In this document: positions 8,238 through 17,590 of the stretch, one piece after another
Layout of the letters: each line of letters starts with the position of its first letter
Numbering within the stretch: position 1 is the stretch's first letter
NCBI GenBank assembly: GCA_021790515.1
Contig: JAJYHV010000038.1
Span: 1 to 34,776, forward strand
DNA length: 34,776 nucleotides
Direction: 5' to 3'
Source: Pseudomonadota bacterium
GTDB lineage: Bacteria > Pseudomonadota > Gammaproteobacteria > Burkholderiales > Sulfuriferulaceae
The notes under the pieces: model-generated
What the model saw: only the letters and a program-made list of their open reading frames with translations
The model's database searches: none
What the model was told of the DNA's origin: nothing
Program-made: the position numbers and the translations under genes

Positions 8238-9422
8238 ATGGCTGAGGATAGCGATCTTGAAAAGACGGAACAGGCGTCACAGCAACGGCTGGATAAGGCG
8301 CGTGAGGAGGGTGATGTTCCGCGTTCACGCGAATTGTCGGTGTTTGTCAATCTGCTGGCTTCGGGTGGCGGTATCTGGCTGTTGGGTGGGGGGTTGGTAG
8401 CAGCGTTGCAAACTTTTCTGGGGAGCAATTTGCGTATCGATCGTGCTGAAGCCTATGACACATCGGCTTGGTATGGTCATTTTAGTCACAGTCTGGTTGG
8501 CGTGGCATTGGCCTTTGCGCCGCTCGCCGGAGTGGTCGTGCTGGGTGCAATTCTGGCGCCGGTATTGTTGGGTGGTTGGCTGTTCAGCCTGCAGGCAATC
8601 AATATAGACCTCGCACGTATCAATCCATTGAGTGGATTGGCAAATATTTTTACCATTCGTACGGTGGTCGAACTCGGCAAGGCGACTGCCAAGGCGGTGC
8701 TGGTGTCTACTGTGGCATGGTTGATGCTGTCGCACAATATCCTGAGCATGCTTGGTCTGGGTCTGGAGAGCACTCGCGCCGGTTTGGGGCACATGGCAAG
8801 CATCATGTGGCGCATTTATGTTTTTGTGACACTGTCGCTAGGTATTGTGGCGTTGATCGACGTGCCTTATCAATTGTGGAGTTACGCGAATAAATACAAG
8901 ATGACTCGGCAGGAGTTGCGTCAGGAGGCGCGTGAATCGGAGGGTGATCCACAGATTCGCGCCAAAATTCGTAGTCAGCAGCGTGAAATGGCGCGGCGGC
9001 GCATGATGACAGAAGTGCCGAAGGCGGATGTCGTCGTCACGAACCCAACACACTTCGCCGTGGCGCTGAAGTATGCCCAACAGGGAAACCGGGCACCGGT
9101 GGTGGTCGCCAAGGGTGCGGACGAAGTTGCGGTTCGTATTCGTGAACTGGCGGCGGAACATGCCGTTCCGTTGCTGGAAGCACCTGCGCTGGCGCGCGCA
9201 TTGTATCGACATGTGGAGTTGGCGCAGGAAATCCCGGATACGTTGTACAGTGCCGTGGCGGAAGTGCTGGCGTACGTGTTCCAGTTGCGTGCCTGGCGCG
9301 ATGTCGGCGGCAGAATGCCCGTGATCCCAGACAAAATCGTGGTGCCGGCGGGAATGGATCCTTTTGAGGAAGTGGCGGCAAAGTCATCGGCTTATCTGGT
9401 TGCGGAGGGTGAGTTGTCATGA
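8238..9422 (+). CDS. flhB: Flagellar type III export switch protein FlhB
   Basis: 394 residues. Inner-membrane component of the flagellar export gate that switches substrate from rod/hook to filament type. The N-terminus EKTEQASQQRLDKAREEGDVPRSRE is the family hallmark; four transmembrane helices follow to about residue 210. The cytoplasmic autocleavage site NPTH is at residues 269-272, intact, followed by FAVALKY. The C-terminal tail is slightly long. GGGGTGAC precedes the ATG. It begins a run of seven flagellar genes in one direction, and its stop overlaps flhA by 4 bp. Upstream DNA is disturbed by a transposase remnant, so the native promoter may have been replaced. Confidence 0.97.
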   Translation: MAEDSDLEKTEQASQQRLDKAREEGDVPRSRELSVFVNLLASGGGIWLLGGGLVAALQTFLGSNLRIDRAEAYDTSAWYGHFSHSLVGVALAFAPLAGVVVLGAILAPVLLGGWLFSLQAINIDLARINPLSGLANIFTIRTVVELGKATAKAVLVSTVAWLMLSHNILSMLGLGLESTRAGLGHMASIMWRIYVFVTLSLGIVALIDVPYQLWSYANKYKMTRQELRQEARESEGDPQIRAKIRSQQREMARRRMMTEVPKADVVVTNPTHFAVALKYAQQGNRAPVVVAKGADEVAVRIRELAAEHAVPLLEAPALARALYRHVELAQEIPDTLYSAVAEVLAYVFQLRAWRDVGGRMPVIPDKIVVPAGMDPFEEVAAKSSAYLVAEGELS

Positions 9423-11494
9423 ACGCCATCAAGTTTCCTGCCTGGCTGATGAATGTGACCAGTTCGATGATTATTGGGCCGTTCATCATCGTGATGATGT
9501 TGTCGATGATGGTGCTGCCCTTGCCGCCCTTTGTGCTGGACATTTTTTTCAGCTTCAATATCGCCTTGGCCATCATGGTGCTGCTGACCAGTCTGTATAC
9601 CGTGCGACCGCTGGATTTCATGGCTTTTCCGACGGTATTGCTGGTGAGCACCATTCTTCGTTTATCGTTGAATGTGGCGTCAACACGGATTGTGCTGACG
9701 CAGGGACATACCGGACCTGCCGCTGCGGGTAAAGTGATTGAATCATTCGGCCATTTCCTGATTGGCGGTAACTATGCTGTAGGAATCGTGGTGTTTATCA
9801 TTTTGACCATCATCAATTTTGTGGTGGTCACCAAAGGCGCCGGGCGGATTGCCGAAGTTGGCGCCCGGTTTACGCTGGATGCAATGCCGGGCAAGCAGAT
9901 GGCGATTGATGCCGATTTGAACGCCGGGCTCATCGGTGAACAGGATGCGCGCAGGCGGCGTACTGAAGTGGCTCAGGAAGCTGAATTTTATGGCGCGATG
10001 GATGGCGCCAGCAAGTATGTGCGCGGTGATGCCGTGGCAGGCATCATGGTGACAGTGATCAATATCGTGGGTGGTCTGATTGTTGGAGTGGTGCAGCATG
10101 ATTTGAGTGTTGCCGCGGCGGCAAAGGATTATACGCTGCTGGCAATTGGTGATGGTCTGGTGGCGCAGATTCCATCGCTGGTGATTTCCACGGCTGCCGG
10201 TATCGTAGTCTCCCGGGTGGCGAGTGATCAGGATATTGGTAAACAATTGCTCAGTCAGTTGCTGGCAAAACCCAACGTATTATGGATTGCTGCCGGATTG
10301 CTGGGTTCGATGGGCATTATTCCTGGCATGCCGCATGTTGCTTTTCTGTTACTGGCCGGTATTCTGGGTGGGGCAGCCTATCTGCAGCGGTATCGCAACC
10401 AGCAATCTGCTGAAGTGGTGCCGGAAACGGTGACGCCACCGGCCGACGCAGAGGAGGCAACGTGGAAAGATATCATTCCTGTCGATACGTTGGGGCTGGA
10501 AGTGGGATATCGTCTGATTCCGCTGGTTGACAAAGGGCAGGGTGGTGAGTTATTGAAACGTATCAAAGGTTTGCGCAAAAAATTCGCTCAGGAAGTGGGC
10601 TTTTTGCCGCCATCGGTACATATTCGCGACAATCTGGAACTGAAACCCAATGTGTACCGAATTACCTTGAAAGATGTCGAGATCGGTCGGGCTGAAGCGC
10701 ATGTCGGCCAGTTGATGGCCATCAATCCTGGCATGGTGAACGGAACGTTGCCCGGTATTGCCGCTACCGATCCGGCCTTTGGCCTGCCTGCCATCTGGAT
10801 CGATCCGAATTTGCGCGATCAGGCGCAATTGTTGGGTTATACCGTGGTGGACACATCGACCGTGATCGCCACACATTTGAACCATCTCATTACGGAAAAT
10901 GCGGCTGATTTGCTTGGGCGGCGCGAAGTTCAGCAGTTGCTGGATCATCTGGCGACCGATTTCCCCAAACTGGCGGACGAATTGATACCGAAACTGCTTT
11001 CGGTGGCAGCATTACAGAAGATTTTACAAAACCTGCTGGCAGAAGATATACATATCCGTGACATGCGGAGCATTATTGATGCGTTGAGTGAAGCAGCACC
11101 GCGTACGCAGGATATCAATGAATTGACGACAGCCGTGCGCGTGGCGTTGGGACGGTCGATTGTGCAACAGATTTTTGGCAGTCATCAGGAATTGCCGGTA
11201 TTGATGCTCGATACCCGCCTTGAACGCTTGCTGTTCCAAGCTGTACAGGCCAGCGGTGAGCAGGCAGCCATTGAGCCAGGACTTGCCGACACGCTGGTCA
11301 AACAGGTCATGCAGGCTGCACAGCAACAGGAAAAACTTGGGCAGCCTGCCGTATTGTTGGTTCCGGCTGCATTGCGTTGGTTGTTGACGCGCTTTTTGCG
11401 GCGCATGGTGCCTCAACTCAAGGTGTTGTCGCAAGCAGAAATTCCCGATGGTAAATCTGTACGGGTCAGCCATCTCATTGGAGGTCAGACATGA
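9419..11494 (+). CDS. flhA: Flagellar export gate protein FlhA
   Basis: 691 residues, normal for the family. Eight N-terminal transmembrane helices (to about residue 330) form the export gate ring; the rest is the cytosolic docking domain for chaperone-substrate complexes such as FlgN-FlgK/FlgL (flgN is at 33814). Signatures include the DIFFSFNIALAIMVLLTSLY helix and the TKGAGRIAEVGARFTLDAMPGKQMAIDADLNAG loop split around residue 140-165, the cytoplasmic FHIPEP loop equivalent. It starts at ATG 9419 within the flhB stop and ends with a 4-bp overlap onto flhF. Confidence 0.97.
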   Translation: MNAIKFPAWLMNVTSSMIIGPFIIVMMLSMMVLPLPPFVLDIFFSFNIALAIMVLLTSLYTVRPLDFMAFPTVLLVSTILRLSLNVASTRIVLTQGHTGPAAAGKVIESFGHFLIGGNYAVGIVVFIILTIINFVVVTKGAGRIAEVGARFTLDAMPGKQMAIDADLNAGLIGEQDARRRRTEVAQEAEFYGAMDGASKYVRGDAVAGIMVTVINIVGGLIVGVVQHDLSVAAAAKDYTLLAIGDGLVAQIPSLVISTAAGIVVSRVASDQDIGKQLLSQLLAKPNVLWIAAGLLGSMGIIPGMPHVAFLLLAGILGGAAYLQRYRNQQSAEVVPETVTPPADAEEATWKDIIPVDTLGLEVGYRLIPLVDKGQGGELLKRIKGLRKKFAQEVGFLPPSVHIRDNLELKPNVYRITLKDVEIGRAEAHVGQLMAINPGMVNGTLPGIAATDPAFGLPAIWIDPNLRDQAQLLGYTVVDTSTVIATHLNHLITENAADLLGRREVQQLLDHLATDFPKLADELIPKLLSVAALQKILQNLLAEDIHIRDMRSIIDALSEAAPRTQDINELTTAVRVALGRSIVQQIFGSHQELPVLMLDTRLERLLFQAVQASGEQAAIEPGLADTLVKQVMQAAQQQEKLGQPAVLLVPAALRWLLTRFLRRMVPQLKVLSQAEIPDGKSVRVSHLIGGQT

Positions 11495-12804
11495 ACGTGA
11501 AGAAATTTATTGCGGCCAATTCGCGCGAGGCATTACGTAAAGTACGTGATGCGCTGGGGCCTGAAGCGGTGATTTTGTCCAATCGCAGCGTGGCAGAAGG
11601 GGTCGAGATCATGGCCATGGCCGATGCCGATATCGCGTCTCTGGCCAATGCACGGGTAGAGCCTGAAGCCGAGGCGGCACTGGATTTTGGTCAGACAGCG
11701 GCTGCTTTTCGCCCTTCTTCGAGCAAGGATGCGTCACGTCAATTTCCGGCCGGGGGGCGCGAGTTTGCAGGAACGAGCACGGCATCGGCTACGCCTGCCA
11801 CGTCTGCCGCGTCTTCTGTGACCGGTCATTCCACTGCCATGCCTGCCGATATGGCGCGAATGATGCAGGAAGTGCGTGAAATGCGGCAGATGCTGGCGCA
11901 GCAGATGGCGGATATGGCTTGGGACAGTCAGCGTCAGCGAAACCCTGCACACAGTGTTTTGTTGCGAGAACTGTTGTCTGCCGGATTCAGCCCGGCGTTG
12001 TCCCGGCATGTGTTGGCGCATTTGCCCGAGGGGAAAACTGCGGAATCTGGTCTGGCATGGGTGAAATCAGCGTTGGCACGCAATCTTCAGGTGCTGTCGA
12101 ACGAGCAGGATGTGCTGGACCGCGGCGGAATTTTTGCGCTGGTGGGACCGACCGGCGTCGGCAAGACAACCACAACTGCCAAGCTGGCGGCACGTTGTGT
12201 CATGCGCCATGGTGCGCATAATCTGGCGCTGATTACGACTGACGGTTATCGTATCGGCGGGCATGAGCAATTGCGTATTTATGGCAAGATACTCGGTGTC
12301 ATGGTGCATACGGTGCGCGATGAAAGCGATTTACGTATTGCACTGGCGGAACTGCGCAATAAACACACCATTTTGATTGATACCGTTGGCATGAATCAAC
12401 GCGACCAGATGGTAGCCGAGCAGGTTGCCATGCTATCTGGCGCCAATGCGGACGTGCAACGCCTGCTATGTCTGAATGCCACTTCGACGGGCGAAACGCT
12501 CAACGAAGTGGTGCGTGCTTACCAAGGGTCAGGGCTGGCGGGTTGCATCGTGACCAAGCTGGACGAAGCGGCTACCATGGGAAATGTGCTGGACGTCATG
12601 ATTCGTAACAAATTGTTGTTGTACTATGCGGCCAACGGGCAGCGCGTACCCGAAGATTTGCATTTGATGAACAGGGAATTGCTGGTTGATCGAGCATTTC
12701 GCGTGCGGCGCGAAATGGCAGCATTTCGTTATGACGAAGATGACTTGTCGGTATTGATGGGTAGTGTTTCCACCCAGTCGATGCGTGAGGTGTCCTTTGG
12801 TTGA
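11491..12804 (+). CDS. flhF: Flagellar biosynthesis GTPase FlhF
   Basis: 437 residues. SRP-family GTPase that marks the cell pole and helps place the flagellar basal body. Domains in order: a short N-terminal B domain starting MNVKKFIAANSREALRKVRD, a low-complexity Ala/Ser linker (about 65-125), an N domain and a G domain. The P-loop GPTGVGKT is at 219-226; ITTDGYRIGGHEQL follows, then the LIDTVGMNQRD G3 region and TKLDEAATMGN (G4). Translation is coupled to flhA (ATGA). flhG overlaps its 3' end. Confidence 0.96.
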   Translation: MNVKKFIAANSREALRKVRDALGPEAVILSNRSVAEGVEIMAMADADIASLANARVEPEAEAALDFGQTAAAFRPSSSKDASRQFPAGGREFAGTSTASATPATSAASSVTGHSTAMPADMARMMQEVREMRQMLAQQMADMAWDSQRQRNPAHSVLLRELLSAGFSPALSRHVLAHLPEGKTAESGLAWVKSALARNLQVLSNEQDVLDRGGIFALVGPTGVGKTTTTAKLAARCVMRHGAHNLALITTDGYRIGGHEQLRIYGKILGVMVHTVRDESDLRIALAELRNKHTILIDTVGMNQRDQMVAEQVAMLSGANADVQRLLCLNATSTGETLNEVVRAYQGSGLAGCIVTKLDEAATMGNVLDVMIRNKLLLYYAANGQRVPEDLHLMNRELLVDRAFRVRREMAAFRYDEDDLSVLMGSVSTQSMREVSFG

Positions 12805-13582
12805 TTTCTACAATGATCAGGCTGATGGTTTGCGGCGCATGCTGGCGACGCCGAAACCGCGTTGTGTCACCATTCTTTCGACGCTGGAAGATACGGCACG
12901 TCATCTGATGTTGGGCAATTTGGCTGCTGGCCTCAAGGCAATGGGTAGTCAGGCACTGTTGCTGGACGCTCGCCGTTATCCACGCGTGGGCGCCAGCCTG
13001 GGAGCAAGACAATCACCTTGTTTGCTGGAAATGGCAACGGATGGCAGGCCGGCCATGATGGCGGTGCAGAAAATTGATGCCGGTTTTTCCTTTGCATCCA
13101 TCAGTCACGGGCGCTGTCATGACCTGAGACGCGAAGATCGGGACGGCGCCATGTCGACGCTGTTCGGAGAATTGGCGCGACGTTTCGATATCGTGTTGAC
13201 CGATGCCGAGATTGATGAACGAGATGAGTTGCCGTTGTTTGCGCTCGATCAGACACAGTTGGTGATACAGGTCAGAGGACAGACAGAATCCATTAAATCC
13301 GGCTATATGTTGATAAAGCGTTTGAGTGCGGTATCCGGTCGCACTCGTTTTGGCGTGCTGGTAACGCAAACAGAAGAGCATCGCGCACGGATGATTTATG
13401 CTAATCTTGCACAAACCGCCAAACGTTATCTGGCCACGCCACTGACCTACATGGGATTCGTTCCACCGGACGATCACCTGTCGCGTGCGGCGCGGGCGGG
13501 GCGTTCCGTGATTGATGCCTTTCCTTCGGCGGTGGCATCAGTGGCTTTTCGGCAGATAGCAGGGCAGTTTAGTCTGCTTTGA
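12797..13582 (+). CDS. flhG: FlhG-like flagellar number regulator lacking the P-loop
   Basis: 261 residues from TTG 12797, preceded by GTGAGG at 12785-12790; an ATG at 12764 in the same frame is possible but would add 11 residues inside flhF. The position between flhF and fliA and the N-terminal DQADGLRRM (residues 7-15) identify it as FlhG/YlxH/FleN. In the family the DQAxxLR helix stimulates FlhF GTPase activity. The rest is MinD-like in pattern (NLAAGLKAMGSQALLLDAR), but the deviant Walker A KGGxGKT is absent: residues 28-36 read STLEDTARH. The usual DxAG-type switch is also degraded (VLTDAEIDERDEL). ATP binding and dimerisation are therefore doubtful. The frame is intact, so this is divergence rather than decay. 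Confidence 0.85.
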   Translation: MVDFYNDQADGLRRMLATPKPRCVTILSTLEDTARHLMLGNLAAGLKAMGSQALLLDARRYPRVGASLGARQSPCLLEMATDGRPAMMAVQKIDAGFSFASISHGRCHDLRREDRDGAMSTLFGELARRFDIVLTDAEIDERDELPLFALDQTQLVIQVRGQTESIKSGYMLIKRLSAVSGRTRFGVLVTQTEEHRARMIYANLAQTAKRYLATPLTYMGFVPPDDHLSRAARAGRSVIDAFPSAVASVAFRQIAGQFSLL

Positions 13583-13604: not shown

Positions 13605-14339
13605 ATGTATACCCTGAGCGGAAAATCCGATAAAACACAAGTATTGATTGACCATGCTCCGATGGTGAAACGTCTGGCTTACCAGTTAAAGGCAAAGCTT
13701 CCGCCCAGCGTTGAAGTCGACGATTTGATACAGGCTGGCATGATCGGCTTGCTTGATGCGGTTGAACGCTATGAATCGACCCATGGCGCACAGTTTGAAA
13801 CCTATGCCGTGCAACGCATACGGGGAGCGATGCTCGACGAGTTGCGGGGAATGGACTGGTTGCCGCGCAATGTGCGACAGGATATGCGCAAAATTGAAAC
13901 AGCCATAACCAAGTTGCAACAAAAGATGGGGCGTGCGCCAAGTGAACTCGAACTTGCGCGTGAATTGGGTTTGAGTCTGGCTGAGTATCAGGACAAGCTG
14001 TCTGATGGCGGCGGGCATCAATTGGTCTATTATGAAGATTTTCAGGATGAAGGTGACGAACGCGACAGTTTTCTGGAGCGTTACATGGTGTCGGAGGACA
14101 GTGACCCTTTGTCAGGATTGATGGAGGAAGGATTCAAACTGGCGGTGGTGGAAGCTATTGACGATTTGCCGGAGCGAGAAAAAATCCTGATGGGATTGTA
14201 TTACGAGCAGGAAATGAATTTGAAGGAAATCGGCGCCGTCATGGGTGTGTCTGAATCGCGGGTCTGTCAATTGCACAGCCAGGCCATTGCGCGTATCCGT
14301 GCCAAACTCAGGGGGCAGGAATGGACTGGAGCGGACTGA
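13605..14339 (+). CDS. fliA: Flagellar sigma factor FliA (sigma-28)
   Basis: 244 residues, typical FliA length. It directs RNA polymerase to late flagellar and motility promoters. Region 2 is seen in YQLKAKLPPSVEVDDLIQAG and ERYESTHGAQFETYAVQRIR; region 3 in MGRAPSELELARELGLS; region 4 (-35 recognition) near the C-terminus in NLKEIGAVMGVSESRVCQLH. It follows flhG by 22 bp and overlaps motC by 19 bp. Its antagonist FlgM is encoded at 34354-34686 behind a near-perfect sigma-28 promoter. Confidence 0.97.
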   Translation: MYTLSGKSDKTQVLIDHAPMVKRLAYQLKAKLPPSVEVDDLIQAGMIGLLDAVERYESTHGAQFETYAVQRIRGAMLDELRGMDWLPRNVRQDMRKIETAITKLQQKMGRAPSELELARELGLSLAEYQDKLSDGGGHQLVYYEDFQDEGDERDSFLERYMVSEDSDPLSGLMEEGFKLAVVEAIDDLPEREKILMGLYYEQEMNLKEIGAVMGVSESRVCQLHSQAIARIRAKLRGQEWTGAD

Positions 14340-15061
14340 TTGGGGTCCTGCTGGCGTTTGTCGGTATTTTGGTATCGTATGGTCTCGATGGCGGGCATGT
14401 TGCGTCATTGCTGCAACCGGCGGCTTTTGCGATTGTGTTTTCAGGTACGGTTGGCGCCGTCATCGTGCAGACCCGCTTGCCGGTTTTTGTGCGCGGACTG
14501 AAGTTGACGCGCTGGATGGTGTATCCGCCAACTGATCAGCGGCAGAACATGTTGCATAACGTGGCGGTCTGGGGGCAGAATGTACGCCGCGAGGGTTTGT
14601 TGAGTCTCGAATCACACATGCGTGCCAGCAATGACGAATTCGTTGCCAAAGGTTTACGGTTGATGATAGACGGTATCGATTTGGTAAAATTGCGTGAGAT
14701 TCTGGAGGCTGAAATTCAGGCATATGAGTTTGAGTTGCGCCAGGCGGTTAAAATCTGGGAAGCCGCCGGTGGTTATTCGCCCACTATCGGCATTTTGGGC
14801 GCGGTGCTCGGGTTGATTCGCATCATGGAGCATTTGTCTGATCCGACCAAGCTTGGCGGGGGTATCGCCGTGGCGTTCGTCGCCACGGTGTATGGTGTCG
14901 GATTGGCCAATCTGGTTTATCTGCCGATTGCCAATCGTATCAAGGCAATGATTGCTCAGCAGGTGCGCGGCAAAGAATTGGTCATGGAAGGCTTGCTGGC
15001 AATCGGTTATGGTGAGCACCCCCGCGTGATTGAAGACCGCTTGACCGCTTTTCTCAAATAA
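14321..15061 (+). CDS. motC: Flagellar motor stator protein MotC (MotA/PomA family)
   Basis: 246 residues with four transmembrane helices. Proton- or sodium-channel stator subunit of the MotA/TolQ/ExbB superfamily. The short form beginning MDWSGLIGVLLAFVGILVSY is the MotC/PomA-like type encoded next to fliA rather than the classical MotA. The central cytoplasmic part holds REGLLSLESHM and DGIDLVKLREILEAEI; GGYSPTIGILGAVLGLI starts the third helix. Overlap with the fliA end shows coupling. It pairs with motD directly downstream. Whether a second stator set (motAB) exists elsewhere cannot be seen. Confidence 0.93.
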   Translation: MDWSGLIGVLLAFVGILVSYGLDGGHVASLLQPAAFAIVFSGTVGAVIVQTRLPVFVRGLKLTRWMVYPPTDQRQNMLHNVAVWGQNVRREGLLSLESHMRASNDEFVAKGLRLMIDGIDLVKLREILEAEIQAYEFELRQAVKIWEAAGGYSPTIGILGAVLGLIRIMEHLSDPTKLGGGIAVAFVATVYGVGLANLVYLPIANRIKAMIAQQVRGKELVMEGLLAIGYGEHPRVIEDRLTAFLK

Positions 15062-15121
15062 TGCCCGGGTTGCGATTTCTGTCACTTTTCAGGATAAAAA
15101 TCATGTTTCAAGATGGAAATC

Positions 15122-15892
15122 ATGGCACGTAAACATTTTGAGGATGACGAAGACAACCCCGAGCGCTGGATGGTGTCATACGCCGATTTCATTACCCTTT
15201 TGTTCGCTTTTTTTGTGGTGATGTATGCCATTTCCGCTGTAAATGTCAACAAATACCGTATTTTGACGGCATCGTTGGGTACCGCATTCGGGCGGAATCC
15301 GGCGCTTGGCGTGACACCAAAACCGATTGCCAAACCAGCTGGCATCATCAATCGGCCGTTGCCAAAGGCCAATGTCGTCAAGCGGGATGACGAAGCAAGG
15401 AAAATGGATGATATGGCCAAGAATATTTCCAGCAGTCTGAGCAATCTGGTGCAGCAGGGTATGGTGCGCGTCAGCCAGACTTCACGCGGCGTCGATGTGG
15501 AAATCAATGCCAGCTTGTTGTTTCCTTCCGGCGAAGCCAAATTGAGCCCGGAGTCGTTGCGTGCCATACAGGCGATTGCAACAACATTGCAATCACAACG
15601 GTATGATATGGAAGTTGATGGTTATAGTGATGATCAGCCGATTAAAAGCCCGTTGTTTCCTTCTAACTGGGAATTGTCTGCGGTAAGAGCCAGCAGTGTG
15701 GCGCGCGCCTTGGTGGCGGATGGTATTGCGGAAAACAGACTGAAAGTGGTGGGTTACGGTTCAAATGATCCTGTTGTTCCCAATGACACCCCGGAAGACC
15801 GGGCGCGTAACCGGCGAGTGGAATTGGTGATTCTTTCTCCGCATTATGAAGCGGCACGAGAAACGTTGTATCACATGGGGCATCCGCAGTAG
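15122..15892 (+). CDS. motD: Flagellar motor stator protein MotD (MotB family)
   Basis: 256 residues from ATG 15122, chosen because GGA sits 5 bases before it and because homologues begin MARK; an ATG at 15113 would add three residues. A charged N-terminus ends in ERWMVSYADFITLLFAFFVV: the single membrane helix with the conserved channel Asp in SYAD. The C-terminal OmpA-like peptidoglycan-binding domain shows DGYSDDQPI, LSAVRASSVARAL and NRLKVVGYGSNDPV, then RARNRRVELVI. It binds cell wall and anchors the stator. It follows motC by 60 bp. Confidence 0.94.
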   Translation: MARKHFEDDEDNPERWMVSYADFITLLFAFFVVMYAISAVNVNKYRILTASLGTAFGRNPALGVTPKPIAKPAGIINRPLPKANVVKRDDEARKMDDMAKNISSSLSNLVQQGMVRVSQTSRGVDVEINASLLFPSGEAKLSPESLRAIQAIATTLQSQRYDMEVDGYSDDQPIKSPLFPSNWELSAVRASSVARALVADGIAENRLKVVGYGSNDPVVPNDTPEDRARNRRVELVILSPHYEAARETLYHMGHPQ

Positions 15893-16015: not shown

Positions 16016-17590
16016 ATGCACAGCGATCTCGATACGCTGGAATTTGACGCCATTCGTCGTATTCTGGCGCGTTTGACATCCACTCCCTATGGCGATGAGG
16101 CGGCACGCGGCCTGGAACCCGCGCCGGACATCGCACTGGCTCAGTGTATGCAGACCGCTGTCACAGCAGCGCGACAAGTGGTTGATGCAGGGGAACAACC
16201 CAACTTGGGGCAAGTGCCTGACATTCGTGCCGCCATGCGGCAGGTTGCGCAGGCAGGATCGGCGCTCTCGGCGCAGGCATTGCATCATATCCGCAGTCTG
16301 AGCAAAATGGCCGCGTTGTGGCAACGATTGGTAGCCGATTATCGTGATTTGTATGCGCAACCTGAATGTTTGCGGGCGCCGGATGATCTGTTGTCGGCAA
16401 TCGATCGGGTGGTCAATGAGCAGGGGCGTCTGCGTGAAGATGCCACGGCAGAACATGTCGAGTTATATCGCCTTTTCCATGCGCAGCAGGCGGAAATTCA
16501 ACGCCAGCTCAAGGAGATGATACAAGATGCCGCGTTCAAAGGCGCGTTCAGTGGATCGGAGTCCATACAATGGCATGGCGTACGCGCGGTGCTGGCGGTC
16601 AAGACTGCCTTTGCTGATCGCATCAAGGGCGTGCGGCGAGGCAACGTGGCAGGTGGCCGCGAAGTCCTGATGGAGCCGATGGTTGTGGTTGCGGGTAATA
16701 ATCGGCTGGAAACCTTGCATGGACAGATTGAGGCACAGAATCAGCGCGTATTGCGTGAAACAGCTGATGTGGTACGCGTTTATTTACCCGCATTGCAGCA
16801 AATGATTGACGCCATGGCATGGGTTGATCTGGCGCTGGCGGCAGGTCAGTTTTCCGCTGCCATGAACGCCAGCGCGCCAATGCTGGTGGCCGAGGCCAGG
16901 TTATCTTTGCAACAGGTATATCATCCGCAATTGCTGTTACAGTTTCAGCAACGTCAGGTACAGCAATTGGTGCCCTTGACGGTGACATTGGATACTGATT
17001 CACCGATGCTGGTCATTACTGGCCCCAATACCGGCGGAAAAACCGTGGTATTAAAAACGGTTGGGGTGCTCGTTACCATGGCGCATTGTGGTTTGCACAT
17101 TCCCGCTGAAGGATTGTGTGTCATTGGCGATTTTTCGCGCGTCATCATCGATGTGGGCGATAAACAAAGCCTGCATCACCACTTGTCGACATTTGCCGGC
17201 CATGTTGCGGTATTGCGCCGTTTGCTTGATGAAGCGGATGCCCGCACGCTGGTTTTACTGGACGAACTGGGAACCGGCACCGATCCGGAAGAAGGCGCAT
17301 CGCTCGCGATGGCGGTATTGGATGAATTGGCCTCCCGGCAGGTGCGCGGCATCGTTACAACCCACCTCTCGCCACTCAAGGTCTTTGCCAGCGAGCATGC
17401 CTGGTTACATAATGCTTCGATGCGGTTTGACCATGAACATCTGACGCCGACCTATCAACTGGAGCTGGGCAAGCCAGGGCAGTCTCTGGGGCTTATCATT
17501 GCGGAAAAAAATGGATTACCCGCACCGTTGCTGGCACACGCGCGAGTCTATCTTGCCCGTCTGCAACAAGGCGGGTTCGACGTGTCCTGA
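16016..17590 (+). CDS. MutS2-like ATPase without Smr domain
   Basis: 524 residues. The N-terminal core and lever helices begin TLEFDAIRRILARLTSTPYG, as in MutS2. The ATPase domain has Walker A GPNTGGKT at 336-343, the segment DIGDKQS-like VDVGDKQSLHHHLSTFAGH (read as IDVGDKQSLHHHLSTFAGH), and Walker B TLVLLDELGTGTDPEEG. The protein ends shortly after the ATPase, with no KOW or Smr nuclease domain; full MutS2 is about 780 residues. The stop is followed by AT-rich DNA with no trace of an Smr coding remnant, so the short form is probably natural rather than a fresh truncation. MutS2 acts in recombination control and, in some bacteria, on stalled ribosomes; without Smr the role here is open. The ribosome-binding site is AGGAGA. 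It appears to be a single-gene unit. Confidence 0.85.
   Translation: MHSDLDTLEFDAIRRILARLTSTPYGDEAARGLEPAPDIALAQCMQTAVTAARQVVDAGEQPNLGQVPDIRAAMRQVAQAGSALSAQALHHIRSLSKMAALWQRLVADYRDLYAQPECLRAPDDLLSAIDRVVNEQGRLREDATAEHVELYRLFHAQQAEIQRQLKEMIQDAAFKGAFSGSESIQWHGVRAVLAVKTAFADRIKGVRRGNVAGGREVLMEPMVVVAGNNRLETLHGQIEAQNQRVLRETADVVRVYLPALQQMIDAMAWVDLALAAGQFSAAMNASAPMLVAEARLSLQQVYHPQLLLQFQQRQVQQLVPLTVTLDTDSPMLVITGPNTGGKTVVLKTVGVLVTMAHCGLHIPAEGLCVIGDFSRVIIDVGDKQSLHHHLSTFAGHVAVLRRLLDEADARTLVLLDELGTGTDPEEGASLAMAVLDELASRQVRGIVTTHLSPLKVFASEHAWLHNASMRFDHEHLTPTYQLELGKPGQSLGLIIAEKNGLPAPLLAHARVYLARLQQGGFDVS

Follow-up and report, generated by a model that had tools for sequence, protein, structure and literature searches.

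An FlhG that retains its enhancer helix and lacks the ATP-binding loop in a flagellar operon of the Burkholderiales

The contig JAJYHV010000038.1 of the metagenome-assembled genome (MAG) GCA_021790515.1, which is assigned to the Sulfuriferulaceae, was analysed over 34,776 nucleotides, and this whole stretch of DNA is called the window in the following. On the plus strand it carries flhB, flhA, flhF, flhG, fliA and two stator genes in this order (Table 1). The subject of this study is flhG, which lies directly downstream of flhF, the position that characterizes FlhG, FleN and YlxH genes. Its product contains the enhancer helix of the FlhG branch (DQAxxLR, absent in FleN) in the form DQADGLRRM at residues 7–15 and has no ATP-binding loop. 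A preliminary description of the locus had already named an FlhG between flhF and fliA with this motif, a Walker A motif replaced by STLEDTARH, a degraded switch region and an intact frame in a complete operon. The frame, the neighbouring genes, the residue alignment and the substitution rates reported below agree with all of these observations.

The open frame spans positions 12764–13582 (+) and the start of flhG was assigned within it. The most likely translation start is the TTG at 12797, which shares 8 nt with the 3′ end of flhF and is immediately preceded by GTGAGGTG; TTG is the nearest start codon in 10 of the 15 flhG orthologs of the genus. The product starts with LVDFYNDQADGLRRM and the motif reading LVDFYNDQADGLRRMLATPKPRCVTILSTLEDTARHLMLGNLAAG was verified as exact. 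Gln8 aligns with the co-catalytic Gln of characterized FlhG proteins, a residue whose role is described in a passage of PMC12826062.

Family searches recognize the protein only distantly. There was no Pfam family at E<=1, and in NCBIfam a weak match to minD_arch (TIGR01969, 24.3 bits vs. a cut-off of 201.75) was the only one, so that the curated MinD cut-off was not passed. With the single sequence as query, phmmer aligned the protein to FleN of Pseudomonas aeruginosa (8pb9, E 7e-17, residues 40–256) and to FlhG of Geobacillus (4rz3, E 2e-8, residues 7–258), and a family profile of 22 rows matched FleN with E 2.6e-79. Thus, by residue and domain comparison, the protein has the position, the homology and the enhancer helix of an FlhG and is devoid of the Walker A motif, the catalytic Asp and the membrane helix.

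The losses in the ATP site are extensive. Where the deviant Walker A motif KGGxGK[ST] is expected the window FlhG reads STLEDTARH, with the deviant Lys changed to Leu, the Walker Lys to Arg and the Walker Thr to His. In the switch regions the catalytic switch I Asp is replaced by Arg and the switch II Gly by Asp, and in the ITDAY helix the regulatory Asp, which controls the ATPase, is replaced by Ser. By our own mapping we take this column to correspond to D171 of Vibrio alginolyticus FlhG, which a passage of PMC7226244 equates with D152 of Escherichia coli MinD. Among the catalytic positions checked only two Asp residues are left, the first one of switch I and that of switch II. It is strongly indicated by these residues that the protein has lost ATP binding. 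In addition, the tails of the genus FlhG proteins extend only 16–22 residues past a conserved Pro, whereas the median is at least 47 outside the order and at least 48 in the order classes B and C, both being lower bounds because the longer rows had been trimmed close to where the domain match ends. The C-terminal membrane helix is thus missing as well, which had escaped the preliminary description.

Table 1. Features of flhG and its neighbours, in coordinates of the window
Feature	Position	Strand	Remarks
flhB	8238..9422	+	
flhA (FHIPEP family)	9419..11494	+	
flhF	11491..12804	+	signal recognition particle-type GTPase; G1–G4 motifs present
flhG coding sequence, pseudo-ATPase form	12797..13582	+	261 amino acids (aa), TTG start, FlhG-family protein
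Enhancer helix DQADGLRRML, residues 7–16	12815..12844	+	9/10 positions invariant (genus alignment, 14 rows)
Former P-loop STLEDTARHLML, residues 28–39	12878..12913	+	aligned to SGKGGVGKTNVS
Arg59 in place of the catalytic switch I Asp	12971..12973	+	Arg in 15/15 genus sequences
Former switch II DAEID, residues 136–140	13202..13216	+	from residue alignment
Y170..K174, post-switch helix	13304..13318	+	retained in nearly all FlhG; adjoining ATPase-controlling Asp lost
Conserved C-terminal module, residues 201–257	13397..13567	+	protein stops 4 residues further, without membrane-targeting helix
fliA, sigma-28	13605..14339	+	Sigma70 r2/r3/r4 domains
motA-type stator gene	14321..15061	+	
motB-type stator gene	15113..15892	+	

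Orthologs of flhG were found in 14 of the 17 genus relatives searched, and the P-loop is absent from all 15 genus proteins (the window included), each of which is encoded by an open frame. The ortholog in a second MAG (L034/G015) is 95% identical to the window FlhG and likewise lacks the P-loop; since this genome and 13 further genus genomes share the loss in open frames, it is not a sequencing error. Seven within-genus pairs, some with a synonymous divergence (dS) >1, gave ratios of nonsynonymous to synonymous substitutions (dN/dS) of 0.077–0.184, that is, purifying selection. Conservation is distributed unevenly along the protein: in a genus alignment of 14 rows, from which the short ortholog L018 was left out, 9 of 10 residues of the helix and 30 of the 57 residues 201–257 are invariant, in the former pocket (residues 29–135) only 8 of 107. 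The ITDAY helix of the genus has kept Tyr and Lys in 15/15 sequences and the Asp in none.

The reading of the preliminary description would fail if a second, canonical FlhG were encoded elsewhere, and a search of the 15 genus genomes with a canonical FlhG query found none. The gene adjacent to flhF was the top match in 15/15 and alone in reaching the enhancer helix, and the other genomic matches begin at query position 9 or beyond. The window genome, which is 96% complete, has nine matches to the CbiA/ParA/MinD family, six of which were recognized by eye as ParA-like, BioD, Ffh or CysNC and three of which were not identified. The genus member G017 has neither a match to the window FlhG nor flhF. 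Elsewhere in the window, at positions 16016–17590, lies a gene for a MutS2-like protein of 524 aa that matches only positions 3–513 of the 790-position MutS2 model.

The order of the window (Burkholderiales in GTDB, the classical Betaproteobacteria) was sampled with 300 genomes, 196 of which have flhF, and FlhG was read in 190 of these. For 139 of the 196 genomes the protein came from a first set of 147 rows, chosen from profile matches mostly starting at the helix; because this selection favours the helix, the set was completed from flhF with 43 and then 8 further proteins. Of the 147 first-set rows 145 have an flhF frame in the locus fetched with them. The canonical deviant Walker A motif occurs in 0/190 of the order proteins and the Gln of the enhancer helix in 190/190; the full motif DQA..[LIM]R is present in 183, and the remaining seven variants (e.g., HQAQGLR) were judged by eye. 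In family f49 the motif is worn to HQGxxL with the Gln retained (L278 in G108, L280 in G146, L259 in G210).

The extent of the decay differs within the order. Among the 139 proteins of the first set 37 have GK[ST] without the full deviant motif, 76 are without the Lys and 26 without a P-loop, and in the completion sets GK[ST] was found in 0/43 and 1/8 (GVGKS). None of the 37 GK[ST] proteins has the catalytic Asp (Asn, Gln, His, Phe or Ser is found there), and an Asp stands in this column in 9 of the 76 Lys-less proteins. The post-switch helix of the P-loop-less rows has kept Tyr (31/33) and Lys (30/33) and has the Asp in 2/33; this residue table takes in all but the last eight FlhG of the order. 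In G037 (L274) and G162 (L254) the gene is an open frame of 133 aa in which the helix runs straight into the C-terminal piece and the ATP half is missing. Judged from these alignments, the ATPase has decayed throughout the order, with the window FlhG as an extreme case, and the complete loss is common to its genus and two related families. The interpretation of the preliminary description is therefore partly supported: an intact FlhG with the helix and without an ATP site stands, with the addition that the gene is under selection, but it had missed that the loss is not confined to this one protein; the observation was right and understated. As a side observation, G250 (L163), outside the flhF set, encodes a FleN-type protein that has the canonical SGKGGVGKT but not the helix, with a divergent flhF and a sigma-28-type gene as neighbours; none of the other 147 first-set rows of the order is of this kind, G250 being one of them.

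The rest of the same class served as control. Its 66 loci anchored on flhF yielded 64 FlhG/FleN proteins, 63 of them readable at the N-terminus; no FlhG was obtained from G436 and from G445, where the contig end truncates the locus, and the protein of G361 is without its N-terminal part. The canonical Walker A motif and the catalytic Asp are each present in 63/63, and the ITDAY helix has its Asp in 63/63, Tyr in 62/63 and Lys in 63/63. DQAxxLR is found in 40/63 and Gln in the enhancer column in 47/63. Since the Gln outnumbers the full motif outside the order too, the contrast between order and control is less sharp for the helix than for the P-loop. That the helix is missing in FleN of Pseudomonas is already published, in a passage of PMC12713375.

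Five named records were compared for helix and P-loop: Aeromonas caviae has both, P. aeruginosa only the P-loop, and both the helix and the Lys are missing from a Paraburkholderia plasmid protein with no annotated flagellar neighbour; the two others, from Burkholderia glumae and Cupriavidus metallidurans, are compared to the window FlhG at the end of the text. FlhG of C. metallidurans is 76% identical to that of G170 from the window's order, and on this ground the order is taken as GTDB Burkholderiales. Two records labelled as plasmids carry flagellar core genes: NZ_CP131792.1 (L307) of P. aeruginosa, labelled as a plasmid, has flhA-flhF-fleN-fliA-cheY-cheZ, and the 23-kb plasmid NC_010879.1 (L305) of B. 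glumae has flhA-flhF-flhG-fliA.

For the history of the loss a tree of 151 rows was used, calculated with the P-loop columns removed, from the first set only and with 16 outside rows; 12 order rows >=90% identical to others had been dropped. The genus falls within a clade of 22 P-loop-less rows, together with the families f8 and f26 and one row of f30 (SH-aLRT 99). The placement in a P-loop-less clade means that the loss in the window is old and shared rather than recent. Parsimony counts seven changes for complete P-loop loss and eight for Lys loss. The supported branches force two complete losses only, and several P-loop-less rows are on long, unsure branches. The contrast between the order and its outside may go back largely to a single event at the order's base, and Fisher p-values, which take no account of relatedness, were given no weight.

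Published work on FlhG gives a hint how such a protein could act. In a passage of PMC12826062 the Gln of the FlhG helix is described as co-catalytic in the FlhF dimer, and the same source and PMC11236974 contain the statement that FliG bound to FlhF is unable to take FliM/FliN before FlhG acts. A section of PMC11236974 reports binding of FlhG to FliM as nucleotide-independent, whereas FlrA requires the ATP dimer. For Bacillus subtilis a part of PMC12327844 states that hooks are distributed without discernible change in the hydrolysis-dead variant D65A, that removal of the membrane helix has only a modest effect and that Q8A resembles the deletion. Further, the N-terminal FliM motif LSQxEVDALL is kept in 8/8 genomes read and FlhF has retained its G1–G4 motifs.

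We suggest that the window FlhG is a pseudo-ATPase with a retained MinD-like scaffold, whose usual pocket would neither bind ATP nor hydrolyse it, and which would not form the ATP sandwich dimer and would not dock to the membrane via a C-terminal helix. It would act as a monomer, as an adaptor independent of nucleotides. Insertion of the Gln of its N-terminal helix into the GTPase dimer of FlhF would trigger GTP hydrolysis and release FliG, and the conserved C-terminal half would probably bring FliM/FliN to the nascent C-ring. The timing would come from GTP loading of FlhF, from the availability of FliM or from gene expression, and not from an ATP cycle of FlhG. We consider it fairly probable that the protein is an ATP-independent adaptor which triggers GTP hydrolysis by FlhF and probably hands over FliM. 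This is favoured because the window FlhG has kept the helix and the C-terminal half and has lost hydrolysis and the membrane helix; the stimulation of the FlhF GTPase is inferred from the conserved Gln. The loss of the ITDAY Asp with retention of Tyr and Lys is what would be expected if a partner surface outlasts a catalytic one. The pattern suggests an optional ATP cycle, with the helix which switches FlhF off as the essential part.

Nevertheless, several points weigh against this interpretation, and the first of them come from characterized mutants. The B. subtilis variant D65A is a constitutive dimer and informs on hydrolysis only, and the Geobacillus ATP-binding mutant K36A has lost its partner GpsB (both in a part of PMC12327844). 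In V. alginolyticus the deviant Walker A mutant K31A leaves FlhG impaired or non-functional and the cells hyperflagellated, according to a passage of PMC7226244. FleN K19A of P. aeruginosa dimerizes inefficiently and no longer binds the AAA+ domain of FleQ, although it is still significantly inhibitory according to the same passage of PMC10723142. In addition, the putative FliM-carrying role of the C-terminal half is deduced from its conservation only. The AlphaFold2 model of the window FlhG, calculated from a two-row alignment with one relative, is unusable with a mean predicted local distance difference test (pLDDT) score of 33.4 and every residue below 50, and it leaves room for an unorthodox nucleotide pocket. 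Five order genomes (G227, G113, G150, G271 and G242) showed no FlhG in the stretch read past flhF, so that the helix is dispensable or replaced there. In G227 (L260) fliA follows directly after flhF. In the four others, all of family f4 (G113, L265/L308; G150, L282/L309; G271, L290/L310; G242, L262/L311), the C-terminus of flhF is greatly extended, with frames of 749–1009 aa up to the locus end in three and of 554 aa from mid-gene in the fourth, and this extension might replace FlhG. The locus of G221 is cut before the FlhG position.

The search for a driver of the loss belongs to the same side of the balance. FlhDC was considered on raw counts, with FlhC in 20/26 P-loop-less genomes and 33/113 others, and was rejected as the association disappears on the tree (complete loss is represented by only two supported pairs that are independent and Lys loss by six; sign test p = 1). 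In the window genome (G000) FlhC was not matched, which may be a gap since the MAG is incomplete; it is present in 7/9 genus genomes of that sample. Loss of FleQ was rejected as well. FleQ was found at E<=1e-9 in none of the 300 order genomes (best 5.8e-9), PF06490 being unspecific in the order at its own cut-off (130/300 genomes pass, best 37 bits). Outside the order 21 of the 64 FlhG-bearing genomes have no FleQ match and 21/21 keep the P-loop; absence of FleQ is thus not sufficient for P-loop loss. The proposal of the preliminary description that flagellar number would be set by a constitutive activator of FlhF would require another source of regulation, and none was found.

Four other explanations were weighed. 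The site could be remodelled and still bind some small ligand, be it a nucleotide or not, for example via the Arg or Lys at the Walker position, with ligand control persisting. Indeed the loop is not random: the Walker Lys position is basic in 15/15 genus sequences (Lys 10, Arg 5), in the genus and the related family f8 this residue often follows acidic ones (AEKN, DEEK, EDDK), and the genus retains the first switch I Asp in 14/15 and the switch II Asp in 15/15. On the other hand, the phosphate-wrapping glycines are lost with acidic residues at their place in many orthologs, the former pocket has the lowest conservation of the genus alignment, and the 133-aa form is entirely without the pocket half. 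We therefore hold a remodelled site to be possible and unlikely. A new partner of the C-terminal half, with a main role other than FlhF activation such as transcription control via another regulator, would fit the many invariant positions in residues 201–257. However, the helix Gln is kept in every FlhG read in the flhF-bearing genomes of the order, even in the 133-aa remnant. This indicates that FlhF has stayed the target throughout, and we regard a changed main role as quite unlikely. ParA/MinD proteins dimerize face to face, and the window genome does encode ParA-type ATPases, so that the pseudo-ATPase could pair with an intact MinD/ParA-type protein that positions it. Such ATP control in trans is very improbable given that the FlhG side has lost its deviant Lys together with further catalytic residues and that no candidate partner was recognized among the window genes searched. 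Hardly any chance is left for a decaying flhG with little remaining function: ATPase-motif decay is widespread in the order and G227 and the four f4 genomes appear to do without the gene next to flhF, but dN/dS is low in all seven pairs, the genus frames are all open, the helix and the C-terminal half are conserved and the start overlaps flhF.

If the adaptor reading is placed in the wider context, it seems to us, on balance, probable that FlhG of the Betaproteobacteria is a clade-wide pseudo-ATPase in which hydrolysis was lost early and ATP binding several times, with the helix plus the C-terminal module as the extreme form. The related gammaproteobacteria would show the reverse, an invariant ATPase and an often lost helix, as if two separable machines, a trigger of FlhF and a MinD-type regulator, had been dissected in opposite ways. 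These opposite losses of the FlhG halves in neighbouring clades are more interesting than the single gene of the window. No description of the ATP-dead betaproteobacterial FlhG or of the opposite-loss pattern was found in the open-access literature searched, and for flagellation patterns other than the monotrichous one the question which half does what is still open in a 2025 review by Bange and colleagues. The ATP cycle of FlhG is central in models of flagellar number and placement. If the order-wide pattern is true, this cycle would be an add-on, perhaps for FlrA/FleQ or polar landmarks, and the core would be the triggering of the GTPase and C-ring assembly. The natural variants, including the 133-aa form, would be ready reagents for the question of the two halves.

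Among more distant relatives, TadZ and CpaE are SIMIBI proteins and degenerate relatives of ParA/MinD; their ATP sites are atypical and their role is a localizing one. They serve pilus and not flagellar systems and are not known to have a DQAxxLR helix. FlhG/YlxH of Bacillus and Geobacillus (PDB 4rz2, 4rz3) has the DQAxxLR helix and the MinD-like scaffold in common with the window FlhG. It dimerizes in an ATP-dependent manner and has a C-terminal membrane helix, whereas the window FlhG is without P-loop, catalytic Asp and tail. The annotated FlhG of B. glumae BGR1 and the unannotated one of C. metallidurans CH34 are closer in pattern: as in the window FlhG the helix is kept (DQAEGLRR and DQAESLRR) and the Walker Lys is lost (GVGCT and GAGAT), but both have remnants of the glycine loop and a longer tail. 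The mutants K31A of V. alginolyticus and D65A of B. subtilis and the deletion of the membrane helix each mimic one of the losses which the window FlhG combines. K31A is non-functional in Vibrio, in contrast to the natural form, which is under purifying selection, and D65A is a constitutive dimer. FleN of P. aeruginosa (PDB 5j1j, 8pb9) finally matches the window FlhG in family and has the identical position in the operon, and it is the mirror image of it: GKGGVGKT is kept and DQAxxLR is absent.

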